Part shown: positions 49,100-63,142 of the stretch, in pieces
How positions within the stretch are numbered: the first letter of the stretch is position 1
How the letters are laid out: each line of letters opens with the position of its first letter
Assembly (NCBI GenBank): GCA_020850355.1
Contig: JADZEX010000059.1
Span: forward strand, 1 to 64,000
DNA: 64,000 nt
Direction: 5' to 3'
From: Fimbriimonadaceae bacterium
GTDB taxonomy: Bacteria; Armatimonadota; UBA10988
Translations under genes and position numbers: made by a program
Notes under the pieces: model-generated
What the model saw: only the letters and a program-made list of their open reading frames with translations
Databases searched by the model: none
Told to the model about the DNA's origin: nothing

Positions 49100-52000
49100 C
49101 TAGCGGATGGTGACCGTCCGCACGGCCCGCACCATCTCGCCCGCAGCGCTGCGCGCCAGCAACTGCACCTGGTAGGTCCCGCGCGGGACCGGCCGGCCTT
49201 GCGCGTCGAGCCCGTCCCAGTTGAGCGCCACCACCCCACTGCCGGTGCGCGGCGCCGTCTCGACGATCACCCGACCCGCCAGGCTGGTCACGCGGAGCAC
49301 CAGACTCGCCTCGCTGGAGACCGCCGCGCTGACCGCCAACCCCCGGCCGCGGCCGGGCTGCACGGACAGCGTGCCGATCTGCAGCGTGCTGCTGCCGCGC
49401 GGCACCACGGTCAGGTCAAAGAAGCGCTCGCCACTGCCCTGGAAGACGTAGGAGCTGCTGTTGTTGAGCAGCACCTGCTGCCCGGTGCTGAGGTCGAGCA
49501 GCCGCGCCCGGTAGCCATTGGGCAACTGCCGCGCCAGGAACGGCCAACTGAGGGTGACCGGCCCCTGCTGCGCCGCCGTGACGGCCAGCCGCCAGCGAGT
49601 CGCGGTGGTCACCGGCTGGCCTTGCCAGTCGGCGGCCGCGCGAGTCAGGTCGCTGGCGATGATCTCACAGCGCACCGGCCCGCTGCCCGACGGGGCCGCC
49701 GGCGGCGTGACGCTGCGCACGGCCTGCCGCAACGCCCCGACCACGGCCGTGCTGCTGCCCCCGTCGACGCTGGCCGTCAGCGCCAGGCCGAAGTTGGACG
49801 GCGAGACCGGCGCCGGCGCCTGCCGGGCCAGCCCGCTGTCGGGTCGGTAGACCACCCCGACACCGTCCCGCAGGGCCCTCCAGAAGTAGCCCTCGTAGAC
49901 TTGCACCTGGGTCCGCATCCCGTCGGTCCCCGGCAGCACCGGATCGATCACCTGCTCGTAGTCGTGCCCGTTGTAGACCCAGCCGAACGGGTCGATCAGC
50001 GCCCAGTTGTCGGGATCGGCGAGCGTGCCCTGCGAGACGCCGGCCAGGAAGACCTCGAAGTCGGCCAGCCGCCACTGCATGTTGCGCGACTCGCGCGGGT
50101 TGCCCAACTGGTGGAAGCCCGCCGGCGAGGTCACCAGGCTGAACCCGTTGGCACCGCCGTCGTTGCCGGCCCGGGTGCCGGTCAGTTCGGCCACCCCGGC
50201 CGAGTTGGTGCGCAGGAAGAAGCCCTTGCCCGGCGCGATGTTGAACGCCGCGTTGGCGGCATCCGGCCGGAAGAACTCGTAGCGGGTCTGCCCCGCCACC
50301 AACCGCGCCACCTGCGGCGGGGTCGGCGTGACGTTGAAGTCGAGGATCGTCTGCCGGCTGTCAGCCGGGCTGATCGGGAAGCTGATCAGGTAGACCCCCG
50401 GCGTCGACAGCGACACGCTCATCACCTGCAGGAACTCGGCCGTGGCGGTGGCGGCGATCTGCTCCCCGTCCAGGGTGGCGCTGATGGCCACCGTGCCGGG
50501 GTTGTCCTTGGTCATCTGGAACCGCAGTTGGCCGGTCGAGTCGGTCGCCGCGGTCGGGTTGGTGATGTGCAGGCCCTCGGTCGGGGCGCCGAACACCTGC
50601 ACGCGGCTGGCGGCGACCCCGGCGACCGGCTGGGCAGCGCTGTCGCGCACCGTCACGGTGACCGTGATCGGCGTCTGGCCATTGGCCGGAGCCGTCGGCC
50701 GCGAGAGCTGCAGCAGCGAGCTGCCGCCCTGGGCCTTGACGATGTAGTTGACGGTCACTTCGAGGCCCGGGCTGACCGTGAACTCGTGGACGCCTTCGGC
50801 TTCGAGCACCGGCGACCCCGAGCTGGCATCGGCGAACGACAACTGCGTGTCGACGTCGCAGTAGTCCTGGAACGAGCCGAAGAGGTCGATCACCTGCACG
50901 TCGTTGCCCAGGTAGCGGCGCTTGACGGTGCTCACGCGGCTCCCGGAGTTGGTGCCGTTGAGGGTCGCCTTGACCCGCGCCTGGTGATAGAAGTCGGCCA
51001 CGATGGTGCGGTTCTGGGTGGTGATCGTCCCGGTCCGCGGGTTGGGCTGCCCATCGGCATCGGTGTCGGGTGCCAGCCAGCGCTGGTCGGTGCCCTGCGT
51101 CAGCGGCGCCGCCGGAATGCTGTACCCCGAGCCGGCATCGCAGAAGGCGGTGGCGGTCTGCGAGTTGGCGTTGACCGTCGCGCTCTGCCCGCCGGTGAGG
51201 ATGCCGACCGGCACGAGGTTGGCGTCGTCGTAGGTCCCGCCGGCCTGTACCTGAACCTGGAAGGTCGCCCGCAACTGGTGGTAGTAGCTGGCGCTGAGGC
51301 TGGTCACGGTGGAGTTGACGGTGTAGGTCTGCTGCCCCTGCCGCCACCACCGCGCCGAGGTCGTCGAGCCGCTGCTGGTGTCGGGGAAGACCACGTCGCT
51401 GCCGTCGTCGCAGTAGATGGTCGCCGGGCTGCCGTCGTAGACGGCCTGCTGCCGGGTGATCCCGCGCAGGGTGTACTGCACCGCGGCGTAGTTCGAGCTG
51501 TCCAGCCGCCGGGCCCCGGTGACGGCCCCATTGGCGGTGTCGACGGTCACCTGCACCGGCAGACCGAGCAGCCGCTGCGCCTCCTGCACCGCGGCGAAGG
51601 CGTTGACCTTGCCGTAGCCGTAGAGGTCGCTGTGCCCATTGCTGTCGTAGCCGCCGCCGGGCTGGTCGATCTGGTCGGCCGTCCGCTCCAACAGCGCCTG
51701 CACCTCGGTATAGGTCAAGGTCGGGTTGGCCGAAATGACCAGCGCGGTGACCCCCGAGGCCAGCGGGCAGGCCGAGGAGGTGCCGCCGAAGGTTGGCTCG
51801 TAGTTGCCGGCGTTGTAGCCCTGACCACCCATCCGGTCGGTGGTGGTGATCCCGGCCGTGCCAGCGATGATGTCGTTGGAGGGCGCCACCAGGTCGAGCG
51901 CGGCGCCGTAGCTGCTGTAGGCCGAGCGGACCTCCTGGCTGTTGCTGGCACCAATCGCCATCACCCGCTGGTAGGTCTCCAGGCCGCGGCCGGCGATGTC

Positions 52001-53230
52001 GACGTTGTCGTTGCCCGAGGAGTACAGGAAGACACACCCGGCACCGAAGCGGCCGGTGTTGGTGCAGAGGTCGATCGCCTGGCGAATCGGGTCCGGCAGC
52101 GGCAGGTCGACGGTGTAACCCCAACTGTTGTTGAAGATGCTGACTCCGGCCTGGAGGCCAACGGTGTAGCCGGTGGCGACGTCATCGAAGGAGAAGCCGT
52201 TGTTGAAGTCCATCCGGATCGGGAAGATGCGGCAACCGGGCGCCGCCCCAGTGACGCCCAGGTTGTTGTCACCCGCGGCGGCGGCCACGCCGCTGACCGC
52301 TGTACCATGCGCGTCGGCGGGATCCTTGTGCGAGCCGTCGTTGGTGCCGGTCGAAGTGTCATACCCCCGCATCAGCTTGTTGCCGACATCGAGGTCCTCG
52401 TGGTTCGGATCGACGCCGTCGTCCATCACGCCGATCACCAAGAAGCCGCTGCCACGCTCCAGGTCCCAGGCCTCGGCGGCGTCCACGTCGGCGTCGGCGA
52501 GGGTGTTGGGGTAGGTGCCGTCACTGTTGAGGTGCCACTGGTCGGGCGCGTACAGGGGGTCGTTGGGCGTGTAGAACAACTGACCCAGCGGCGCTCGTCC
52601 GCGGGGCCGGGGCGGCGGAGCGTGACGCACCGCCCCACCCACCAGGTTCGGCGTCGCCATCCGGGCGTGCGCCACTTCGACCAACTGCCGGGCCACGGTC
52701 ATCGGGTTGTGGGTCTCGGGATCGACCACCCGGACGAGATAGCCGGTCGGCGCATAGTCGCCCAGCGGCCGGACGAACTCGAGGCCGTAGTCGGCGGTCA
52801 GGGCCTGCCGCTCGGTGAGGCTGAGCGCGCGCCCAAAGTCCAGCAGGATTTCGGCGGTCAGGGCGATCGGCGCCGCCGGCGCGCCGAACGACGGCAGCAC
52901 GGCGATCACGCCCGAGACGGCTCGAACCTCTTGCGCCAGGGTGTCCAGCGCGGCCCGCGAGCGGCTCACCGCCGGGCGTACCAGCACCATCTGGTGTTGC
53001 GGCAGCACGGCCAGGCGAGTGGCCGCATGGTTGACGCCCGCCTGCTGCAAGCCTTGCGGCAGGGCCGCCGTGGCGGCGGCCGAGCCGGTCAGGGCAACCA
53101 CTGCGGCGTCGCAACGTGGCAGACTGACGATCTGCCCATTGGCGTAGAACTGCAGGTCCTGCGCCCCGGCTGCGCTGACTGCCAAAGCCACCCAGAAGAG
53201 CGGTGCCCGCCGTCCGATCCACGCGCGCAT
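49100..53230 (-). CDS. Large secreted subtilisin-like serine protease with multi-domain C-terminal extension
   Basis: A 1376-residue exported S8 protease. Residues 1-23 are a signal peptide, and a propeptide-like region runs to about 210. The catalytic domain (about 220-560) has Asp270 (VMDDGVD), His308 (DAHGTA) and Ser485 (GGTSSACP), plus oxyanion Asn407 (SSGNDN). Beyond it come several beta-sandwich domains, a region with many YxxxF repeats, and a C-terminal FlgD-like Ig domain (VVALNWDGLDAQGRPVPRG). ATG 53230 has GGGAGG and a promoter 150 bases away. The extension beyond residue 560 is longer than most S8 proteases and probably binds surfaces or substrates. Secreted role inferred. Confidence 0.88.
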   Translation of the reverse strand: MRAWIGRRAPLFWVALAVSAAGAQDLQFYANGQIVSLPRCDAAVVALTGSAAATAALPQGLQQAGVNHAATRLAVLPQHQMVLVRPAVSRSRAALDTLAQEVRAVSGVIAVLPSFGAPAAPIALTAEILLDFGRALSLTERQALTADYGLEFVRPLGDYAPTGYLVRVVDPETHNPMTVARQLVEVAHARMATPNLVGGAVRHAPPPRPRGRAPLGQLFYTPNDPLYAPDQWHLNSDGTYPNTLADADVDAAEAWDLERGSGFLVIGVMDDGVDPNHEDLDVGNKLMRGYDTSTGTNDGSHKDPADAHGTAVSGVAAAAGDNNLGVTGAAPGCRIFPIRMDFNNGFSFDDVATGYTVGLQAGVSIFNNSWGYTVDLPLPDPIRQAIDLCTNTGRFGAGCVFLYSSGNDNVDIAGRGLETYQRVMAIGASNSQEVRSAYSSYGAALDLVAPSNDIIAGTAGITTTDRMGGQGYNAGNYEPTFGGTSSACPLASGVTALVISANPTLTYTEVQALLERTADQIDQPGGGYDSNGHSDLYGYGKVNAFAAVQEAQRLLGLPVQVTVDTANGAVTGARRLDSSNYAAVQYTLRGITRQQAVYDGSPATIYCDDGSDVVFPDTSSGSTTSARWWRQGQQTYTVNSTVTSLSASYYHQLRATFQVQVQAGGTYDDANLVPVGILTGGQSATVNANSQTATAFCDAGSGYSIPAAPLTQGTDQRWLAPDTDADGQPNPRTGTITTQNRTIVADFYHQARVKATLNGTNSGSRVSTVKRRYLGNDVQVIDLFGSFQDYCDVDTQLSFADASSGSPVLEAEGVHEFTVSPGLEVTVNYIVKAQGGSSLLQLSRPTAPANGQTPITVTVTVRDSAAQPVAGVAASRVQVFGAPTEGLHITNPTAATDSTGQLRFQMTKDNPGTVAISATLDGEQIAATATAEFLQVMSVSLSTPGVYLISFPISPADSRQTILDFNVTPTPPQVARLVAGQTRYEFFRPDAANAAFNIAPGKGFFLRTNSAGVAELTGTRAGNDGGANGFSLVTSPAGFHQLGNPRESRNMQWRLADFEVFLAGVSQGTLADPDNWALIDPFGWVYNGHDYEQVIDPVLPGTDGMRTQVQVYEGYFWRALRDGVGVVYRPDSGLARQAPAPVSPSNFGLALTASVDGGSSTAVVGALRQAVRSVTPPAAPSGSGPVRCEIIASDLTRAAADWQGQPVTTATRWRLAVTAAQQGPVTLSWPFLARQLPNGYRARLLDLSTGQQVLLNNSSSYVFQGSGERFFDLTVVPRGSSTLQIGTLSVQPGRGRGLAVSAAVSSEASLVLRVTSLAGRVIVETAPRTGSGVVALNWDGLDAQGRPVPRGTYQVQLLARSAAGEMVRAVRTVTIR

Positions 53231-53379
53231 GTTCACCCTCCCGCTCGGCCCCTCGGCAGGGCCGGGCAAGGTATCCATCTCAGGGCGTGTTCGCTGCCGC
53301 GGCGCCGGTCCCTGCCGGTCTCAGACGCGGGCAACGTCTGCCGGCGAGCGCAAGCTGCGCCCGACTCCGACGCCGCATC

Positions 53380-53411: not shown

Positions 53412-55565
53412 TCAGGCGCCGGGGCGGCTCGCTTCTTGGACAGGCGCGGAGCCCGGCGGTTGTGCCGGATCGTCAGCCGGCATCAGCCCGCGTATCGGCG
53501 CGATCCGGCCGGCGTCGTAGGCGGCCAGGAAGGCGTCCACGGCGGCCGGGTGCCACTGCGACCCGGCGCCCTCGCGCAACCGCCGCAGGGCCTCCTGGTC
53601 GGCCAGGCCGCGGCGGTAGGGCCGGTCGCTGGTCATCGCGTCGTAGGCGTCGGCCACCGCCAGCACCGTCGCCTGGGTCGGAATCTCGTCGCCCGCCTTG
53701 CGGTCCGGGTAGCCCTGGCCGTCGTACCGCTCGTGGTGCCAGCGAATCCCCGGCAGCACGGCGTGCAGCCGCTTGACTGGCGCGATGATCCGCGCGCCAT
53801 GCAGCGGATGCTGCTGCATCACGGCCCGCTCCTCGGCCGTCAGCGGCCCCGGCTTGCAGAGAATCGCCTCCGGAATGCCGATCTTGCCGACGTCGTGCAT
53901 CAGCGCCGCGACCCGCAGCAGGTCGAGGTCGGCCGGCGCCAGCCGCAGCTCGCGAGCCGTCTCGAGAGCCAGCAAGGTCACCCGGTGGCTATGCCCGGCG
54001 GTGTACCGGTCTTTCGCGTCGACCGCCTTGGCGAGGGTCCCGACGGTGCTCAGGAAGAGGTCCTGCAGGTCACCAAACAGGCGCGTGTTGAGAATCGCCA
54101 CAGCGGCGTGGTTGGCCAGGGCCGAGAGCAGGTCCAGGTCGCGGTCGCCAAACACCCCGGGGCCAGTCTTGTTGGCGATGTTGAGCACCCCGATCACCCG
54201 GCCGTGGACCCGCAACGGGACACACAGCGCGTCGCGGACACCGCTCCGGGCTTCCTCCAGGTCGGCCGCGTCGACCAGCCGGAGCGGCTCCCCCGACAGC
54301 GCCACCAGCCCCGCGATGCCCTCGCCGAGTCGAACGCGGGTCGCTGCGACGACCTCCTCGCTGAGCCCCCGCGCGGTCTCGATGCGCAGCTCGGTGCGCT
54401 CTTCATCGAGCAGCATCAGCGACCCGCGCTCGGCCGCCATCAGGGCCATCGCCTGACCCAGAATCTCGTTCAGCACATCGCGGCTGTCGACGGTCACCAG
54501 CGCCCGGCTGACTTCGAACAGGGCGGTCAGCTCGCCGGTGCTGCGACTCAGGTCGCGGGCCTGCTCGTGCAGGCTATTGCGCAGCCAGGCCGTCTCCCAG
54601 GCCAGCCCGGCCTGCTGCCCAAACTCCCCGAGCGCCTCCCGCTCGGTGCGGTCGATGGCCAGGTCGGGCAGGCTGCTGAGCAGGGTCAGCCGGCCGATCA
54701 GGCGGTGCTCCTCACCGACCAGCGGGACCACCAGGTTGGTCCCGTCAAGGTCCAACGAGCGGGTGGTGATCACCGCTGGCGGTCCGGCCGCGCCGCCCAG
54801 CTCGTCGGGCTCCACCGCCTGCGGCAACCGCGCCGGCGGCCGGCCGCCGCGGCTCCGCGAGCCCCACGGTTCGAGGGTGTCCCCCGCCGCGTTGAGCAGC
54901 GCCAGGGTGACGCTCTGCACCGCCGGCAGCGCCTGCGCGGTGTCCAGCACCAGATCGGCCAGCGCCGTCAGCGGCAAGGGCCGCCGCAAGGCCCCCGCGA
55001 TGGTGCTGGTGGCTCGCTCGTGGTGCAGCAGGCGGGCCATCCGGCGGTCGCGCTCCTGCCGTTCGGCCGCGTCCCGCGCCAGGGTCCCGACGACCAGCCC
55101 CCCGGCGACGATCGTCGCGGCCAGGCCGATCAGCTCGTAAGGCGCCGCGCGGCCCGGCGTCTGGACCGTCAGGAAGGTCGCCGCGACGAGGCAGGCGAGG
55201 GCCACCAGCAGGACCGTGTCCTCGCGCAGCAGCAGCCCTGCGTCAAGCACCGGCAGCACCAGCAGGTAACGCAGCGGGCTGTTGATGCCGGGGCCGTGCA
55301 ACAGGATCAGGCAGGTCGCCAGGACGATGTCGCCGACCAGCCGCAGCCGGCGGGCCTGGTCGGTGGAGTGGGCGGTCAGCCCGGCCAGCAGGCTCAGCGT
55401 GACGTAGCCCAGCCCGACCCCCAGCAGGCCGTTGACAGCCGGCTCGGGCGCTGCCAGGGCGACGATCAGCAGCGCGGCCAGCAGGACTAGCGCCCGCGCC
55501 ACCTGCCAGCCGGGCGCGCTGTAGGGCGAGGACCAGGTCACGGGCAGCCCGGCGGTAGCATCCAC
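53412..55565 (-). CDS. Membrane GAF-HD-GYP c-di-GMP phosphodiesterase-like protein
   Basis: A 717-residue protein with an N-terminal block of about five membrane helices (residues 20-165), two GAF-type sensor domains (about 195-325 and 345-495) and a C-terminal HD-GYP domain. In the latter H525, H557-D558 (MHDVGKIGIP) and H610-H611 followed by GQGYP (residues 616-620) match the metal-site and GYP motifs of active c-di-GMP phosphodiesterases. No ATG fits: GTG 55565 is ten bases after the sigma-factor stop and is the preferred start. It is the last gene of the pilMNOPQ-sigma-HD-GYP run. Inferred to hydrolyse c-di-GMP in response to a small ligand or redox state. Confidence 0.88.
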   Translation of the reverse strand: MDATAGLPVTWSSPYSAPGWQVARALVLLAALLIVALAAPEPAVNGLLGVGLGYVTLSLLAGLTAHSTDQARRLRLVGDIVLATCLILLHGPGINSPLRYLLVLPVLDAGLLLREDTVLLVALACLVAATFLTVQTPGRAAPYELIGLAATIVAGGLVVGTLARDAAERQERDRRMARLLHHERATSTIAGALRRPLPLTALADLVLDTAQALPAVQSVTLALLNAAGDTLEPWGSRSRGGRPPARLPQAVEPDELGGAAGPPAVITTRSLDLDGTNLVVPLVGEEHRLIGRLTLLSSLPDLAIDRTEREALGEFGQQAGLAWETAWLRNSLHEQARDLSRSTGELTALFEVSRALVTVDSRDVLNEILGQAMALMAAERGSLMLLDEERTELRIETARGLSEEVVAATRVRLGEGIAGLVALSGEPLRLVDAADLEEARSGVRDALCVPLRVHGRVIGVLNIANKTGPGVFGDRDLDLLSALANHAAVAILNTRLFGDLQDLFLSTVGTLAKAVDAKDRYTAGHSHRVTLLALETARELRLAPADLDLLRVAALMHDVGKIGIPEAILCKPGPLTAEERAVMQQHPLHGARIIAPVKRLHAVLPGIRWHHERYDGQGYPDRKAGDEIPTQATVLAVADAYDAMTSDRPYRRGLADQEALRRLREGAGSQWHPAAVDAFLAAYDAGRIAPIRGLMPADDPAQPPGSAPVQEASRPGA

Positions 55566-55575
55566 GGGCGGTGCC

Positions 55576-56925
55576 CTAATCGTCCGGCGGCGTTTCGGGC
55601 CACACCACCAGCCCGTCGGCGCCGCCGCCCTCGAGCGCCTGCCGCAAGGCCACGTCGGCACCGTTGAGCAGTTCGTCGGGAGTGTTGCCACCGGCCGGCC
55701 AGAGGGCCATGCCGCAGGCCACCTGGAGCGCCTGCCCGGCGGCCTCGCGCAGCAGCGGCAAGGCCCGGAAGTGCTCCTGAATGCGGCGACAGAGCACCGT
55801 CGCCTGGGCCCCGGTTTGCGGCAGCAGCAGCAGGAAGCGGCTGTCGTCGTAGCGCCCGACGCGGTCGATCCGGCGGGAGCATTCGACCAGCACGTCGGCC
55901 AGCAGGCAGAGCACGCGGTCGCCGTCGGGCTCGCCGTACTGCGTGACGTACCCGCCCAGGTGCTGCACCGCCAGCAGACAGACGCTCAGTTGGTGGCCGT
56001 ACCGCCGGCTGCGGCTGAACTCCTCGTCGAGCCGTTCGAGCAGGTAGTGGCGGCTGAACAGCCCGGTCAGCTCGTCCTTGATGGTCTCCTCTTCGACCCG
56101 CCGCACGTAATGCTGCAGTTGGCCCTCGATGCTGCGGAGCTGGCGGCGCATCTCCTTGCGCTCTTCGACCAGCAGTTGGTCCTTCAACTCCTTCAGCGCC
56201 CGCCGCAGGATGTGCGAGACGTGGCTGATGCTGTAGCCCAGTTTGCGGGCGATCTCGGTCTTCGAGAGGTCGTTGAAGAAGAAGTCGTAGACCACCTGGC
56301 GCTCGACCGAGCGCAGCCGGTCCATCGCCTCTTCGAGCGCCAGCCGGTCGACGATCGGCACCTCGCCGCCTTCTTCGGCCAGCGCCCGCACCTTGTCGCG
56401 GTCGGCCGGCGCCAGGCCGCTCTCCTGCTCCTCGCCGGCGGGCTGCTCCAGCGAGCTGACGCGGAACACGTCGCGCGCCCGCACCGCCTCGGCGATCTGG
56501 GCGTCGGGCAGGCTCAGCTCCTCGGCGATCTCCTCGACCGTCGGCTCGCGGCCGAGGCTTTGGTGCAGCCGGTTGATGGCCTTGTTGATCTTCTGGTTCA
56601 GATCGTGCAGCCAGCCCGGCTCGCGGATCAGCTTGCCCTTGTCCCGCAGATAGTGCTGAATCGCGCCCTGCACGGCGTGTGAGGCGTAGGTCGTGAACTT
56701 CACGCCGCGGCGCGGGTCGAACATCTCGACGGCGTTGATCAGCCCGATGTACCCCTCCTGGGCGATGTCGTCGACCGGCTCGCCGGTGAAGCGGTAGCGC
56801 GCCGCGAGGTGCTCGACGAGGTCCATGCAGGAGAGCACGATCTCATCGCGCACCGCCGTTTCACGGGTGCGGGCGTATTCCAGTAGCAGTGGCGCCAGGG
56901 GGTCGTCTGAGCGTGAAGGGATCAC
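55576..56925 (-). CDS. SigB/SigF-type sigma factor fused to a degenerate GGDEF domain
   Basis: A 449-residue protein. Residues 15-100 are sigma region 2 (DDIAQEGYIGLINAVEMFDP, FTTYASHAVQGAIQHYLR), residues 105-180 region 3, and 203-250 region 4 with a helix-turn-helix (SKTEIARKLGYSISHVSHI). A coiled linker (250-282) joins a GGDEF-fold domain (284-440) that starts DELTGLFSRHYLLERL as in diguanylate cyclases. The GGDEF signature is DDSRF (360-364), so G, G, D and E are all lost and cyclase activity is unlikely. An RxxD I-site (R351-D354) at the exact five-residue spacing is kept. GTG 56925 starts 27 bases after pilQ ends. A c-di-GMP-responsive sigma factor is inferred. Confidence 0.88.
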   Translation of the reverse strand: MIPSRSDDPLAPLLLEYARTRETAVRDEIVLSCMDLVEHLAARYRFTGEPVDDIAQEGYIGLINAVEMFDPRRGVKFTTYASHAVQGAIQHYLRDKGKLIREPGWLHDLNQKINKAINRLHQSLGREPTVEEIAEELSLPDAQIAEAVRARDVFRVSSLEQPAGEEQESGLAPADRDKVRALAEEGGEVPIVDRLALEEAMDRLRSVERQVVYDFFFNDLSKTEIARKLGYSISHVSHILRRALKELKDQLLVEERKEMRRQLRSIEGQLQHYVRRVEEETIKDELTGLFSRHYLLERLDEEFSRSRRYGHQLSVCLLAVQHLGGYVTQYGEPDGDRVLCLLADVLVECSRRIDRVGRYDDSRFLLLLPQTGAQATVLCRRIQEHFRALPLLREAAGQALQVACGMALWPAGGNTPDELLNGADVALRQALEGGGADGLVVWPETPPDD

Positions 56926-56952: not shown

Positions 56953-59469
56953 CTAACGCACCGCCGCGGCGGTTGGTGCGACCGGCGCGGGCGGCGGCAC
57001 CAGGCGCACCTGCAAGAGCACCAGCAGCTCGCGGGCCGGCTGCTCGGCCGGTCGGGCCGACGCCGGGTCGGCGAGCAGCCCGCTGAGCAGCAGCACCTGG
57101 CCGTCGGGCACGCGGGCGCTGGTCTCGGCCTCGCGCGTGGCCACCGCGCCGCCGGCCGCGGGCTGGCTGTACTCGGGTCGCAGCCGACAGAGCACCGTGC
57201 CGTCGCCCGGCACCTGACAGTGCAGTTCGAGCGCCACGCCGATCCGTTCGATCTCGCGACTCGCCTGCGGCTGACCGGCGACCAGCAGCAGACTCGGCAC
57301 GCCCTGGCGCTGACCCACCAGGAAGCGCAGCGAGCCGCCATCGAAGCAGCGCAGGACCGGCCGGGAGAGCACCCGACTGGGCTCGTCCCCGGCGATCAGC
57401 AGCGCCGCCTGGGCCAGGTCGAGGTCGGCCCGGAGCAGGCTCTGCGGGCCGGCCGGGCCGCCGGTGCGGTCAAGCCCGAGGCGCTGCGCGACCCACGGCG
57501 TGACCTCCGCAAAGAGCGCCTGCACCTCGACCTCGGGCGGCGCCAGGTCGATCTGCGCCAACAGCGTCAGGGCCCGCTCGACCGCCGCCGGGGCGCCACT
57601 GAGGATCAGCCGGGGAGTCGTCCCGAGCCGTTCGGCGGGCGGCTCGGCCGGCCCGTCGGCGCTCTTCGGCGCGCCCTCGGGCGCGGCCGGGCCGAGCTGC
57701 GGGGCGACCCGCTCGCCGGCACCGGGGGTGCGTTGCGACTGGTAGTCGACCAGCTTCAGTTCGGGCACGGCCCCGTGGAGCACCCGCAGCAAGTCGGCCG
57801 GGCGGGCGTAGCGGACGGCGTAGACCGCGGTCTGTGCCGGCTCGTCGGCCTGGGTCAGCGCGGCCAGCACGGCCTTCACCTGGTCGGCGCGGCCGCTGAT
57901 TGTGAAGACCCCCTCGCTGACGGTGGCGCTGACGGCACTGCCGCCGGCGGCGATCAGCCGCTCGGCCGCGGCCACACTGAGCGTGCCCGGACGCCAGGTG
58001 CGGGAGATGCTGACAGCCTCCCCGGCGGCCGACTTCTCCTCCCGCTCCCGGCGCCGCGTGGCGGCATCCTGCAGTTGTTTCACCAACTCCCGCAGCGAGC
58101 GGACCTTGTCCTCCTTGCCACGCAGGTAGCAGAGTGTGCCCTCGGCCTCGGTGTAGACGATGTCGAGGGTGACCCCGGCGCGGGTCGCCAGGTCGGTGAT
58201 CTTCTCGGGCGGCACCAGCGGCACCCAGATCGCCTCTTCGACGTCCTTCAGCGGCTCGCGGTCCAGCTCTTCGAGCTTCCGTCGACCGCGGTAGACATCG
58301 CTCCGCGTGCCGCGCAGGGTGAGGCTGCCGGCGTCCTGGTCGGTGACCACCGTGAGCTGCGGGTAGAACGCCCGCAGGGCCTCCTGCGCTTCGGGCAGGC
58401 TGAGGTTCTTCAGAAACACCGTCGCCTCGTCCTGCTGCGCCGAGGGCGGCGTGATCACGTGCCCTTCGCCACTCGGCGGCAGCGCGGCGATCCAGCGCCG
58501 GGCGCGCCCGACGTCTTTGAGGGCCCCGCTGACCGGCAGCGGGCCATCCTCGGGAATGCTCTCGAGCACGCGCCGCAGCCGCAGGTCTGGGAACTGGGCA
58601 TTGACGTAACGCCAGAGGTCGGCGACCTGCCAGTTCGGCGGCAGGGGCAGATCCTCGTCGACCCGCCGCTCGCCCAGGTCGGACTCGGCGCCGACCAGGT
58701 AGATGTTGCCGGGCAGCCGGGTCCAGACCAGCTTCCAGGCCTCCCACAAGGCGTCCAGCGCCTCGGTCAGGGTGACCTGCTTCAGCTTCAGCGAATAGCT
58801 GCCGGCGACTCCCGGCTGCAGCATGATGTTGGCGCCGGTCTGCTCAACCAGGGCCCCGATGATCACCCGAATGTCGGTATCCACGAACTCCGCGGTGATC
58901 TTCGCCTCGTGCGCCGGCCCGGCTGGTTTGTCGGGCCCGGCCGGCTCGGCGGGGGGCGGCTCGACCTCAATCACCACCTGCTTGCGCGACGGCAGGGCAT
59001 AGGCCCGGCAGCGGGCCGGGGTGTTGAGCCGCACCCGCAGCACCGTGTCGACACCGTCACGCCCGATGGAAACCTCGGCCACGGCGTCGCGGGCGACCCG
59101 GATGGTGCGGGCCAGCTTCGGCGCGGGGGTCGTCGCCGGGATCGTCACGGCGAAGGTCGCCTGACCCTCGAAAGCGGTCTCGACGCTGCGCTTCGGCCAG
59201 CTCAAAGTGGCGGTGAGGCGCAGGAAGTCGGCCCCTTCGGGCTGCCCGACGGTGACCTGCAGCAGTTGCGCGTCGCGCTCCGGGAAGGCCGCTGGTGGCG
59301 GCGCGTCGCCGGCCGGGGCCGCCTCGCCGGCCGCCGCCTCGTCTGCGCTGGCCGGCGGGTCGGCGTCGGCCGGCGGTGCCAGCGGCGGCATCGCCTGGTC
59401 GTCTTGCGCCCGCAGCGGCGCAGCGCCGCCTGCCAGCAGCAACAGCAGTAGCCAGCGTGTCCAGTTCAT
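56953..59469 (-). CDS. pilQ: Type IV pilus secretin PilQ-like
   Basis: An 838-residue outer-membrane secretin. Signal peptide (WLLLLLLAGGAAPLRAQ); an acidic/Pro-rich stretch to about residue 60; an AMIN-like beta domain (65-165); then STN/N0-type and N1/N2-type domains starting ITAEFVDTDIRVIIGALVEQ. The C-terminal secretin domain has EVEVQALFAEVTPWVAQRLG and the DGQVLLLSGLLAD strand, then RELLVLLQVRLVP at the end. ATG 59469 overlaps the pilP-like stop (ATGA). It forms the pilus exit channel. The domain order is canonical; the protein is a little more divergent than proteobacterial PilQ. Confidence 0.88.
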   Translation of the reverse strand: MNWTRWLLLLLLAGGAAPLRAQDDQAMPPLAPPADADPPASADEAAAGEAAPAGDAPPPAAFPERDAQLLQVTVGQPEGADFLRLTATLSWPKRSVETAFEGQATFAVTIPATTPAPKLARTIRVARDAVAEVSIGRDGVDTVLRVRLNTPARCRAYALPSRKQVVIEVEPPPAEPAGPDKPAGPAHEAKITAEFVDTDIRVIIGALVEQTGANIMLQPGVAGSYSLKLKQVTLTEALDALWEAWKLVWTRLPGNIYLVGAESDLGERRVDEDLPLPPNWQVADLWRYVNAQFPDLRLRRVLESIPEDGPLPVSGALKDVGRARRWIAALPPSGEGHVITPPSAQQDEATVFLKNLSLPEAQEALRAFYPQLTVVTDQDAGSLTLRGTRSDVYRGRRKLEELDREPLKDVEEAIWVPLVPPEKITDLATRAGVTLDIVYTEAEGTLCYLRGKEDKVRSLRELVKQLQDAATRRREREEKSAAGEAVSISRTWRPGTLSVAAAERLIAAGGSAVSATVSEGVFTISGRADQVKAVLAALTQADEPAQTAVYAVRYARPADLLRVLHGAVPELKLVDYQSQRTPGAGERVAPQLGPAAPEGAPKSADGPAEPPAERLGTTPRLILSGAPAAVERALTLLAQIDLAPPEVEVQALFAEVTPWVAQRLGLDRTGGPAGPQSLLRADLDLAQAALLIAGDEPSRVLSRPVLRCFDGGSLRFLVGQRQGVPSLLLVAGQPQASREIERIGVALELHCQVPGDGTVLCRLRPEYSQPAAGGAVATREAETSARVPDGQVLLLSGLLADPASARPAEQPARELLVLLQVRLVPPPAPVAPTAAAVR

Positions 59470-60386
59470 GGGGCAGTATCCAAGCCGGGAGGTGGATCAA
59501 ACGGCAGCGCGCCCGGGGCCGCCGGACGGGTCGGGCCAGCGCGCCGGCCCGGCGGCCGGTTGGGTCGCGGCGCGGTGGCGGCGGGGCCGTCGTTTTCGGA
59601 ATCGGCCGCGGGCGGCTGGTTGGTCCCGGCGGCCGGGGCCGTGCTGCGGCGCAGGGGCACCCGCCAGCGGTGGCCGTCGCGCAGCAGCAGCACCGCCTCG
59701 TCGAGCACCGCCTCCAGGCGGTAGTCGCCGATCAGTTGGCCGACCCGCACGGTGCGGTCACCCTCGCGAGTCCGGAACAGCGCCGCGGAGCGCGCCGGGT
59801 CCTGGTTGCGGATCACCCCGACCGGTTGCAGCGCCGCCTCGTCGAGCGCCGGCGGATCGCCAAACGCGGGCGGATCGGCCGGGTCGAAGGCCCGCAGCTC
59901 GGCGACGCTCGGGCCGGCCGGCCGGCGGGCTGGCTCCGCCGCTGGCCGGCTGCCCTCCCCACCACGTCGCCGCGGCCGCGGCCGGTCGGTGGTGCTGGGC
60001 GCGGGCGGGGCAGGTTCGTCGGGAGCCGGCGGGGCCGGTTCGTCCGGCGCTGGCGGACCCGGCGCCTCACCGCCGGGCGCCACCGGGGCCGGGATGATCG
60101 GTCCGGGCGCCGCCCCGTCGGAGCTGGCCGGCGGCTCGTCGCCGGCTGCCTCGGGAGTCGCGCCGCCGGGCGGCAGGAAAGGATCCCGGTCGGGCTGCGG
60201 ACTGGTCTCGTCGAAACCGCCGTCGGTCGGCCCGCTGGCGATGGCGGCGGGCGGGCTCACCAGCTTCGCCACCGGCCGCTGCAGCCGACTCGCCGCGACC
60301 CACAGGCCGGCCCACAGCAGCAGCAGCAAGAGGCCGCCGAGGACCGCCTGCCGCAACCGGGTCGCCGGACTCGGCGTGCTGCTCAT
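59466..60386 (-). CDS. pilP: PilP-like type IV pilus assembly protein
   Basis: A 306-residue protein: one N-terminal membrane helix (about 15-33), a long Pro/Ala/Glu-rich disordered region (about 50-165) with DEPAPPAP repeats, and a compact beta domain near 185-245 (PVGVIRNQDPARSAALFRTR, VRVGQLIGDYRLEAVLDEAV). That domain matches the PilP core, which links PilNO to the secretin. A basic, Pro-rich tail follows. PilP is usually a lipoprotein, but here it is anchored by a membrane helix. It overlaps both neighbours (ATGA). The call depends largely on position and the short core. Confidence 0.7.
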   Translation of the reverse strand: MSSTPSPATRLRQAVLGGLLLLLLWAGLWVAASRLQRPVAKLVSPPAAIASGPTDGGFDETSPQPDRDPFLPPGGATPEAAGDEPPASSDGAAPGPIIPAPVAPGGEAPGPPAPDEPAPPAPDEPAPPAPSTTDRPRPRRRGGEGSRPAAEPARRPAGPSVAELRAFDPADPPAFGDPPALDEAALQPVGVIRNQDPARSAALFRTREGDRTVRVGQLIGDYRLEAVLDEAVLLLRDGHRWRVPLRRSTAPAAGTNQPPAADSENDGPAATAPRPNRPPGRRAGPTRPAAPGALPFDPPPGLDTAP

Positions 60387-61438
60387 CGGCCGCCTCCTGC
60401 CGCCGGCGGCCGGCCCGTCGAACGGCGCGCGCGCCGTTCGGCGTCCTGCCAGGGCCGCCCCATCCGCGGTGGCGCCTGTCCCGCCGACCGCGGCAAGCGC
60501 TCGTCAGCCGGCGGCGCGCCCGCGGTCGGTCCCGGCGGCTCAGGCGCGGGTTCGTCTCCCGGCGGCTGCGGCGCCGGCTCATCGGCCGGCGGCTGAGGCG
60601 CGGGTTCGTCTCCCGGCGGCTCGGGCGCGGGTTCGTCTCCCGGCGGCTGCGGCGCAGGCTCGTCGGCCGGCGGCTCAGGCGTGGGTTCGGCACTCGGTGG
60701 GGCGGGGGCGGCGACGGGCGGACTGGCGGGTGCGGGTGGGACCACCGCCCGGAAGCCGGGGCTGCTGGGACGGCGGCGTTCGTACTGCCAGATCCGCGCC
60801 GTCAGCACCGAAGGCGGCGCGGGGGCAGTCGGGTCGGGAATGCCGGGCGCCTCGTAGGCCACCAGCCCCAGCTCGGCGAGCACCTCGCCCGTCGCGCTGC
60901 CGGCGACCGGGGTGATCGTCAGGCGCCGCACGGCCAGCAGCTTCGGGGCGCTCTGGAAGGCTTCCAGCAACTGGCCGAGTCCGGCGTAACGGCCCTTCAG
61001 CGTGACCGTCACCAGCCGCCGCCCCGGCGCGCTGGCCTCCCCGCGGCTGGCGGGCGGCGTGCCCCCGCTGGCCAGCAGCCGCGCCGTCTCGCCCGCGTCG
61101 GGGACCACGCCGACCAGCGCCAGCTCGGCGCCGCTCGCCAGGTCGGCGAGCTGGGTCACCAGCGTCGGCACGTAGAGCCGCGCCGAGGTGGCCACCTCCA
61201 AGCCGGCCAGGTCGCTGCGCAGTTGCGCCGACCGCCGCCGCGCCGCGGGCAACTCGCGGACCAGGGCCCGCTCGGCGGCCAGCTCGCGAAGCTGGTAGCG
61301 CAGCTCGGGGATCACCTGCTGGTACTGCCGCCACGGCCGCGCCGCGGCGCCCAGCATCAGGGTGCCCCAGACGACCCACCCGGCGACATAGCAGAGCAGC
61401 GTGGCGGTGGGACTCAGCCGGTCCAGCCAACGCTTCAT
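60383..61438 (-). CDS. pilO: Type IV pilus alignment protein PilO-like
   Basis: A 351-residue protein with an N-terminal membrane helix (about 12-32), a coiled-coil (ELRYQLRELAAERALVRELP) and a ferredoxin-like beta domain (about 90-220) that fits PilO, which pairs with PilN. The last about 110 residues are a disordered tail of DEPAPQPP repeats encoded by a 27-base tandem array, and a basic end. ATG 61438 overlaps the pilN stop (ATGA). The first 240 residues are the usual PilO length; the repeat tail is extra and probably reaches through the periplasm. The true start was taken from this ATG, not the longer open frame. Confidence 0.82.
   Translation of the reverse strand: MKRWLDRLSPTATLLCYVAGWVVWGTLMLGAAARPWRQYQQVIPELRYQLRELAAERALVRELPAARRRSAQLRSDLAGLEVATSARLYVPTLVTQLADLASGAELALVGVVPDAGETARLLASGGTPPASRGEASAPGRRLVTVTLKGRYAGLGQLLEAFQSAPKLLAVRRLTITPVAGSATGEVLAELGLVAYEAPGIPDPTAPAPPSVLTARIWQYERRRPSSPGFRAVVPPAPASPPVAAPAPPSAEPTPEPPADEPAPQPPGDEPAPEPPGDEPAPQPPADEPAPQPPGDEPAPEPPGPTAGAPPADERLPRSAGQAPPRMGRPWQDAERRARRSTGRPPAAGGGR
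60533..60694. repeat. 27-base tandem repeat in pilO
   Basis: Six units of 27 bases (from 60533, 60560, 60587, 60614, 60641 and a degenerate 60668), all beginning CGGCGGCT. In the pilO frame they encode five (A/G)DEPAP(Q/E)PP copies plus a decaying sixth. Unit length is a multiple of three. Confidence 0.9.
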
Positions 61439-62025
61439 CGCGGGTCTCCCGCGAAGTCGCGCAGCGGCCGCCGGACCAGGCCGGTCACGGTGAACTCGAG
61501 CGGCCCGGCCCCGCTGGCGGCGTCGGCCGGGCGGCTGCGCTGCAGCACCGCGACCCCGCACCAGGGCGACTGATTCAGCCGCTGGACCAGCTCGCCAATC
61601 GCCTGCTGACGCTCCGCGCGGCCTTCCAAGCGGAGCACCTGCCGCCCGTCGTCGCCGACGGCCTCGACCTCCAGCCGGGTCAGCCAGAGCCCCTCGGGCA
61701 GCCGGTCGCGCAGCTCGTGGAGCAGGTCCCGCCATTGCGCGTTGTTGCCATGCACGCCCATCGCCCGCCGCCGCGGTTCGGCGAGGTCGCGCAACTCGGT
61801 CTGCAGGCGGCGGGTCTCGGCCGCCTGGTCGGCGATCCGCCCGCGGTCCAGGCGGGCCTGCAGCAGCCGCCAGGCCCCGACCGAGGCGGCCCGCTCCAGC
61901 AGCAGCGGCACGAGGGTCAGCAGCAGCAACACAACCACATTGGCGCGGCGCAGCCCGGCGGCCAGCCGCCAGGCCCGGCGGCGGGCCGCGTACCGTTCGG
62001 CGATGAAGTTGGCCTGGCTTGGCAT
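61435..62025 (-). CDS. pilN: Type IV pilus alignment protein PilN-like
   Basis: A 196-residue bitopic protein. A basic cytoplasmic start (MPSQANFIAERYAARRRAWR), one membrane helix (NVVVLLLLTLVPLLLE), a coiled-coil (residues about 60-85) and a ferredoxin-like domain (about 90-190), the usual PilN layout. The short N-terminus with N-F-x-A-E-R resembles the PilM-binding motif. ATG 62025 overlaps the pilM stop by one base (TGATG), and its own stop overlaps pilO. Function: links PilM in the cytoplasm to PilO/PilP in the periplasm. Confidence 0.86.
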   Translation of the reverse strand: MPSQANFIAERYAARRRAWRLAAGLRRANVVVLLLLTLVPLLLERAASVGAWRLLQARLDRGRIADQAAETRRLQTELRDLAEPRRRAMGVHGNNAQWRDLLHELRDRLPEGLWLTRLEVEAVGDDGRQVLRLEGRAERQQAIGELVQRLNQSPWCGVAVLQRSRPADAASGAGPLEFTVTGLVRRPLRDFAGDPR

Positions 62026-63098
62026 CAGCTTGCCACCACCGCTTCTCGCAGGGCCAGCCCCAGGCAGTTGACGAACGCCGGCCCCAACGCCGTGACCGCC
62101 GGCGGCAGCGCCGCGCGGCTCTCGGCGGCCACCTCAGCAAACGGCTCCAAGCGCTCCACCGGCCAACCCAGGCGCGCGGCCAGCACCTCCGGCAGGCCGG
62201 CCAACTGGGCCCCGCCGCCGTGCAGCAGAACCTGCGCTGGCGGGCCCTCGGCCGCGCCGCGGAGACCCTCGACCAGCGCCTGCAACCACTCTTCCAGGGC
62301 CGCGGCGCACGGCTCGTCGAAGGCCGCCTCGGCCTCGGTCAGACAGCCCAACTGCTGTTCCTTGTACGCCAGCGCCTCCGCCGTGGTGCACTCGGCCGCC
62401 TGCGCCAGGCGCGCCGTCAGCGCCGCGCCGCCGGTCGGCAGCACGGTCGCCCGCTGCACCTCACCGGCAACCACCCACCTGGCGGTGCAGTGGCCCTCAC
62501 CACAGTCGACCAGCAGCAGCTCCTGCTGTTGCCAGGACTCGTCCTCGGCGCTGGCCAGCAGGAACAGCGGCGCGTGGGGCAGGGCCTCGATCACAATCGG
62601 GTCGAGGCGGGCGGCGAGCAGCGCGCCGGTGAGGTCGTCGACCAGTTGCTGCGGCGCCGCGGTGACCAGCAGGTCGAGCGCCCCATCGAGCGCATTCGGC
62701 GCGGGCGCGAGGCGCCAGTCGACGGCGTGGGCGCCACTCCAGGGGGCCGGTTCACCAACCACCGCGGCGGCCGCGGCGGCGGGCAGCGCGGACGCTGGGA
62801 GCGCCGGCAGGTGGACGCTGCCGAGGGCGAGGAAGGGCGCCCCAATCGCACTGACGGCGCGCGCGTCGGGGAGGCCCAGCTCGTGCAGCAACTGCCGCAG
62901 ACAGTCGCCCAGGGCGTCGCGCGCGGCGAGCCGGCCACGGGGATCGAACAGCCCGGCGGGAGTCGCGGTGCGGGCGAGCCCGACCACCGTCGGGGCGGCG
63001 GTGCGCGGGTCGAGCCAACTGACTTTGATGCTATGTCGCCCGACGTCCACGCCGACAAGCGGCAGGCCGCCGAGGTGGCCGCGGCGCGCACGGGCCAT
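62025..63098 (-). CDS. pilM: Type IV pilus actin-like ATPase PilM
   Basis: A 357-residue FtsA/actin-fold protein. VGVDVGRHSIKVSWL carries the phosphate-1 motif near residue 20, LLLVDCGEGHCTARWVV the phosphate-2 region, and VLLHGGGAQLAGLPEVLAAR the adenosine motif, as in PilM. PilM binds PilN at the cytoplasmic face. The frame extends further upstream, but ATG 63098 is the homology start, with a purine-rich ribosome site (GCGAGAG) upstream. It is the first gene of pilMNOPQ-sigma-HD-GYP and is driven by a near-consensus promoter 50 bases upstream. Confidence 0.9.
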   Translation of the reverse strand: MARARRGHLGGLPLVGVDVGRHSIKVSWLDPRTAAPTVVGLARTATPAGLFDPRGRLAARDALGDCLRQLLHELGLPDARAVSAIGAPFLALGSVHLPALPASALPAAAAAAVVGEPAPWSGAHAVDWRLAPAPNALDGALDLLVTAAPQQLVDDLTGALLAARLDPIVIEALPHAPLFLLASAEDESWQQQELLLVDCGEGHCTARWVVAGEVQRATVLPTGGAALTARLAQAAECTTAEALAYKEQQLGCLTEAEAAFDEPCAAALEEWLQALVEGLRGAAEGPPAQVLLHGGGAQLAGLPEVLAARLGWPVERLEPFAEVAAESRAALPPAVTALGPAFVNCLGLALREAVVAS

Positions 63099-63142
63099 GG
63101 CTCTCGCCGCCTCCCCGTCACGAGTGTGGTATACCAAAGGCC

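Follow-up and report, generated by a model that had tools for sequence, protein, structure and literature searches.

In the papers found, cyclic dimeric guanosine monophosphate (c-di-GMP) reaches sigma factors through separate partners only. One of the closest described cases is WhiG of Streptomyces, which is placed under c-di-GMP control by RsiG, a separate anti-sigma factor acting as the receptor, and which is bound in trans by the inactive GGDEF domain of RmdB (PMC13232838). Here, a gene is described in which both elements are joined in one polypeptide: a sigma factor and a GGDEF domain with the motif of the inhibitory site (I-site) for c-di-GMP. It is located in positions 1-64,000 of the forward strand of contig JADZEX010000059.1 (hereafter the window, 64,000 nucleotides in total) from a Fimbriimonadaceae bacterium (Armatimonadota; UBA10988; assembly GCA_020850355.1).

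Dead GGDEF domains which bind c-di-GMP through the I-site are known from SgmT of Myxococcus xanthus (PMC3509222) and PopA of Caulobacter (PMC5052742). They resemble the fusion in their degenerate active site and intact I-site, and a similar receptor role is predicted for the fusion. Their outputs differ, being a histidine kinase, and localisation or CtrA proteolysis, whereas the fusion carries a sigma factor. CorE, the ECF41 group and OrbS carry a ligand-sensing C-terminal extension in place of an anti-sigma factor or in addition to it (PMC8999054, PMC9023288). These are extracytoplasmic function (ECF) sigma factors sensing metals or unknown ligands, in contrast to the fusion, which combines a SigB/SigF-type sigma factor displaying regions 2, 3 and 4 with a c-di-GMP-type receptor domain. 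The parts are therefore of known kinds (degenerate GGDEF receptors, sigma factors with an on-board sensor, WhiG control via RsiG, the RmdB-WhiG contact), while their union in one protein, or any published sigma-GGDEF fusion, was not found in a literature search of open-licence papers.

A preliminary description made from the sequence alone had reported the gene at the correct coordinates without mentioning the strand, which is minus. Pfam analysis bore out that sigma regions 2-4 and a GGDEF fold share one frame. The features of the gene are the following:

55576..56925, minus strand: sigma-GGDEF fusion gene, a single frame of 449 amino acids (GTG start at 56925, stop at 55576-55578)
56635..56832, minus strand: sigma-70 region 2, residues 32-97 (Pfam PF04542, E 3.6e-15)
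56413..56598, minus strand: sigma-70 region 3, residues 110-171 (Pfam PF04539, E 1.8e-15)
56182..56328, minus strand: sigma-70 region 4, residues 200-248 (Pfam PF04545, E 7e-12)
56086..56229, minus strand: single predicted helix, residues 233-280 (AlphaFold2)
55624..56079, minus strand: cyclase-dead GGDEF domain, residues 283-434 (Pfam PF00990, 94.3 bits, E 8e-27; Foldseek)
56011..56013, minus strand: R305, candidate second I-site arginine (alignment)
55864..55875, minus strand: I-site R351-R-I-D354 (family alignment)
55834..55848, minus strand: degenerate DDSRF at the position of the GGDEF signature, residues 360-364 (sequence, alignment)
55783..55785, minus strand: R381, candidate I-site arginine (alignment)

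The best NCBIfam family of the protein was TIGR02980 (SigB/SigF/SigG), with sigma regions 2, 3 and 4 aligned end to end (residues 23-251) and a score of 187.6 bits, which is below the curated NCBI cut-off of 234.35 bits. The presence of region 3 sets the sigma part apart from ECF sigma factors, which display regions 2 and 4 only.

The distribution of the fusion was analysed in 291 Armatimonadota genomes, with the best 150 matches listed. Fusions spanning both halves were identified in at least 149 of the 291 genomes, and near full-length proteins with 34-61 % identity to the window protein occur across the phylum. A frameshift or an assembly join between the two halves, which the preliminary description had considered, is therefore excluded. 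The sole exception among the matches listed is the close relative G214 (loci L010/L015/L044), where the frame is broken near the sigma-GGDEF junction by sequencing error or decay. Additional, more diverged fusions (L181, L182, L184) were detected below the matches listed. A scan of GTDB contigs with low sensitivity gave relatives solely in records titled Armatimonadetes. No clear fusion was detected in a plasmid collection: two places only reached a query coverage of at least 80 %, both with low identity, one consisting of two pieces spread across 2.3 kb, the other annotated as an ordinary sensor cyclase.

The GGDEF domains of 89 family members were aligned and compared with 25 active GGDEF domains of the same phylum, the latter being the best-scoring Pfam matches and not a random sample. 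Metal, substrate and signature positions (319, 321, 327, 328, 335, 336, 361, 363 and 431) are invariant or nearly so in the active domains and scrambled in the family, where aspartate at 319 is found in 13/89 and glycine at 361 in 8/89 members, and where positions 327 and 363 show no consensus. The motifs named previously in the window protein, LLAVQHL (residues 317-323), R351-x-x-D354 and, five residues further, DDSRF (360-364), were all recovered. With this signature and the loss of positions 319, 327, 328, 361-363 and 431, the domain does not qualify as an active diguanylate cyclase, and the earlier claim of a cyclase-dead domain extends to the whole phylum.

In contrast to the catalytic positions, the I-site is retained. 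Conservation of RxxD in orthologues, on which the preliminary description depended, is complete, as both R351 and D354 are present in 89/89 members. R305 is kept in 88/89 and R381 in 87/89 members, versus 18/25 (72 %) of the active controls in each case. R305 is aligned with the second I-site arginine, R313 of PleD and R198 of WspR in the established numbering. R381 is aligned with R390 of PleD and R794 of SgmT. The I-site of SgmT was tested by mutation of residues of the same kind, R763 and D766 in RxxD and a further arginine, R794, 31 residues on (PMC3509222). The domain thus displays in its sequence what characterises degenerate GGDEF receptors of the PopA/SgmT kind: a degenerate active site, RxxD five residues ahead of the signature, and further I-site arginines. 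It is likely to bind c-di-GMP. RxxD as sole evidence was rejected as weak, since 27/33 active GGDEF domains of the phylum share it. The case for a receptor is made by its retention after catalytic loss, together with R305, R381 and the co-loss with c-di-GMP synthesis.

This co-loss was observed in 69 genomes from families and genera with variable presence of the fusion. GGDEF proteins were counted, the fusion was called from the best match and the two-by-two table was tallied by hand. None of the 17 genomes with at most one GGDEF protein had the fusion, against 41 of the 52 genomes with at least four (Fisher p = 3.6e-9, kinship among genomes being ignored). The 17 GGDEF-poor genomes are scattered (g60 in f17; f32; f35; three genera in f9 and three in f10), and since they fall in several families and genera, several separate losses of the fusion are likely. 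Genes of the type II secretion system F (T2SS-F)/PilC type were detected in 69/69 genomes; pilus loss is therefore no explanation. The same pattern bears on the idea that the domain is a decaying, functionless remnant attached to a sigma factor acting alone. The catalytic residues are indeed lost, and strong shortening or divergence is seen in a few members (L182, L186), but frames are open and residues invariant across the phylum, and where c-di-GMP synthesis is gone the whole gene is missing and not the domain alone, so that decay appears extremely improbable.

A monomeric structure was predicted with AlphaFold2 on an alignment of 85 sequences (mean predicted local distance difference test score, pLDDT, 88; predicted template modelling score, pTM, 0.53). 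It shows one helix (residues 233-280) running from the recognition helix of sigma region 4 into the GGDEF stalk. Linkers in the family fall mainly into two length groups, of 26-27 and of 36-37 residues. Their spacing of about three helical turns agrees with a signalling helix that preserves phase, without proving it. Using Foldseek, the sigma half was matched to SigB, SigA and WhiG, and the GGDEF half to isolated GGDEF structures at about 2-3 Å, several of them with bound c-di-GMP; 3ign, a c-di-GMP complex, and 3i5b were matched at about 2.0-2.2 Å. A different nucleotide (GTP, guanosine tetraphosphate (ppGpp) or another cyclic dinucleotide) might occupy either the former active site or the I-site, the active site being free to change ligand and a PleD structure with both c-di-GMP and ppGpp being available (9g85). 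This is very unlikely: no new conserved pattern emerged among the active-site residues, the pocket that is conserved is that of the I-site, and the best structural matches include several c-di-GMP complexes (3ign, 6tts, 5euh).

Several points weigh against a c-di-GMP receptor that controls the sigma factor. RxxD is the rule in active GGDEF domains, so that its conservation may be partly structural, and D284, T287, E302, R298 and P369 are about as conserved as the I-site residues. A few relatives harbour very degenerate domains; in L186, the I-site arginine is apparently replaced by glutamine (read by eye). The fusion is missing from eleven genomes with at least four GGDEF proteins, and the dependence is therefore one-way; moreover, the statistic of the loss pattern does not account for kinship. 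The AlphaFold model is a monomer, and GGDEF dimerisation is outside its scope. Finally, the regions preceding 30 pseudopilin genes from three genomes contained no SigB- or FliA-like promoter motif and four sigma-A-like ones, and were rejected as target promoters.

Some of these points would also suit a GGDEF fold serving solely for dimerisation or for docking of another protein (e.g. an active cyclase, a phosphodiesterase or a pilus protein), with I-site residues needed for folding and no binding of c-di-GMP. Inactive GGDEF domains can be protein-interaction platforms, one of them binding WhiG (PMC13232838), and D284, T287, E302 and P369 outside the I-site are about equally conserved. However, the I-site has retained all four of its side chains jointly (98-100 %) while most of the domain has drifted, and two of them, R305 and R381, reach only 72 % in active domains. 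The fusion also vanishes where cyclases vanish, though docking to cyclases predicts likewise. A pure docking module is considered unlikely.

The charged residues R298, E301 and E302 (56020-56034), in the helix leading to R305, are strongly conserved, more than in active cyclases; perhaps they extend the I-site or contact the sigma part. The protein of L186 (genome G003), with its very degenerate C-terminal domain and apparent glutamine, is a possible natural I-site mutant.

Binding of c-di-GMP to the domain probably controls the sigma part. The protein would then be an alternative sigma factor of the SigB/SigF type that responds to c-di-GMP as a one-component system; control of promoter choice by c-di-GMP, as proposed in the preliminary description, is considered a well supported inference. 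In the proposed mechanism, the GGDEF domain would not synthesise c-di-GMP and would bind an intercalated c-di-GMP dimer at the I-site (R351, D354, R381), R305 being supplied by a second GGDEF domain as in PleD and WspR. Ligand binding would change how the GGDEF domains are oriented or dimerise, the continuous helix 233-280 would relay this change to sigma region 4, and the sigma factor would thereby gain or lose access to RNA polymerase. Given such control, inhibition by c-di-GMP is slightly favoured over activation, since conservation of R305 points to cross-linking between GGDEF domains and since WhiG, too, is inactivated by c-di-GMP. If true, an I-site carried by the sigma factor itself would give the second messenger its shortest path to promoter choice and would illustrate how a dead enzyme domain can replace an anti-sigma factor.

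The sister sigma factors offer a comparison on this last point. Those of the SigB/SigF type without a GGDEF domain show HATPase_c_2 and/or STAS genes (RsbV/RsbW-type) directly upstream in 5/8 loci examined (L187, L188, L193, L194, L199), and neither the window nor the examined neighbour clusters contain such genes next to the fusion. The GGDEF domain may thus substitute for the RsbW-type anti-sigma factor. In a tree built on the sigma part, one supported group (100/97) contains the fusions together with L185 and L186, labelled non-fused, while most non-fused sister sigma factors fall in a supported clade of their own. Three label changes are required on the tree, which is compatible with one gain and two losses; L186, one of the apparent losses, probably retains a very degenerate domain (read by eye). 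The sigma factor of G221 (L187) was considered as a fusion deprived of its GGDEF domain and rejected, as it is a separate sigma factor adjoining STAS and HATPase genes.

The fused genes are located at the end of type IV pilus clusters. In the window, the neighbouring genes are:

62025..63137, minus strand: PilM-like gene (translation inspected by eye)
61435..62025, minus strand: PilN gene (Pfam PilN, E 1.5e-10)
60386..61474, minus strand: PilO-like gene (by position only, between pilN and pilP; no Pfam match)
59469..60386, minus strand: PilP/T2SSC-like gene (weak Pfam T2SSC, below cut-off)
56953..59469, minus strand: PilQ-type secretin, upstream of the fusion (Pfam Secretin, Secretin_N)
53412..55565, minus strand: transmembrane (TM)-GAF-HD-GYP gene of the c-di-GMP phosphodiesterase type, downstream of the fusion (Pfam HD_5, GAF; probable GTG start)

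The gene order is thus pilM-, N-, O- and P-like, secretin, sigma-GGDEF and TM-GAF-HD-GYP, the latter starting about 10 bases past the sigma stop; its product may determine how much c-di-GMP is present locally. In G216, the translations indicate a closely similar order of pil genes, and in G213 (L043) the fusion orthologue is followed by a GAF-rich gene with 43 % identity to the downstream gene of the window, where the contig ends. Among 80 loci, a PilC-type (T2SSF) gene lies directly upstream of the fusion in 60 (55 on the same strand), PilB/PilT-type ATPases were found in 31 and a secretin in 18. One of the ATPases near a fusion harbours an MshEN domain, the c-di-GMP-binding domain type of MshE (PMC10333796). 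Because the gene belongs to a type IV pilus locus, its regulon is probably part of a surface or pilus programme, and the poorly studied Armatimonadota would, if this holds, gain a regulator joining c-di-GMP and type IV pili. The HD-GYP gene of the window is directly followed by a gene for a large subtilase with Big_1/invasin-like and FlgD-Ig domains (49100-53278, minus strand). The genomes G217, G045 and G077 (L151-L180) each contain 42-58 genes of the N-methylated (pseudo)pilin type, with near-identical N-termini in the 30 examined.

A C-terminal Ala-Ala was found in 64/90 fusion proteins (e.g. L017:1432-2805 and L063:5932-7281), versus 7/552 (1.3 %) background open reading frames. Like the spread across the phylum, the co-loss and the pilus link, this is new relative to the preliminary description. 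The Streptomyces sigma factor AntA, which operates without an anti-sigma factor, ends in Ala-Ala in 67/71 orthologues. This end makes AntA a target of ClpXP degradation, and a change of AA to DD stabilises the protein (PMC7142297); AntA differs in being an ECF sigma factor without a GGDEF domain. By analogy, the Ala-Ala end of most sigma-GGDEF proteins is a possible ClpXP degron. It appears reasonably likely that the fusions form a phylum-wide class of sigma factors acting as c-di-GMP receptors within pilus loci, in which a dead cyclase would serve as a ligand-controlled anti-sigma factor in cis, mostly with ClpXP as an additional layer through Ala-Ala. Since the window protein ends in DD and not in AA, its clade is predicted to be without ClpXP control.
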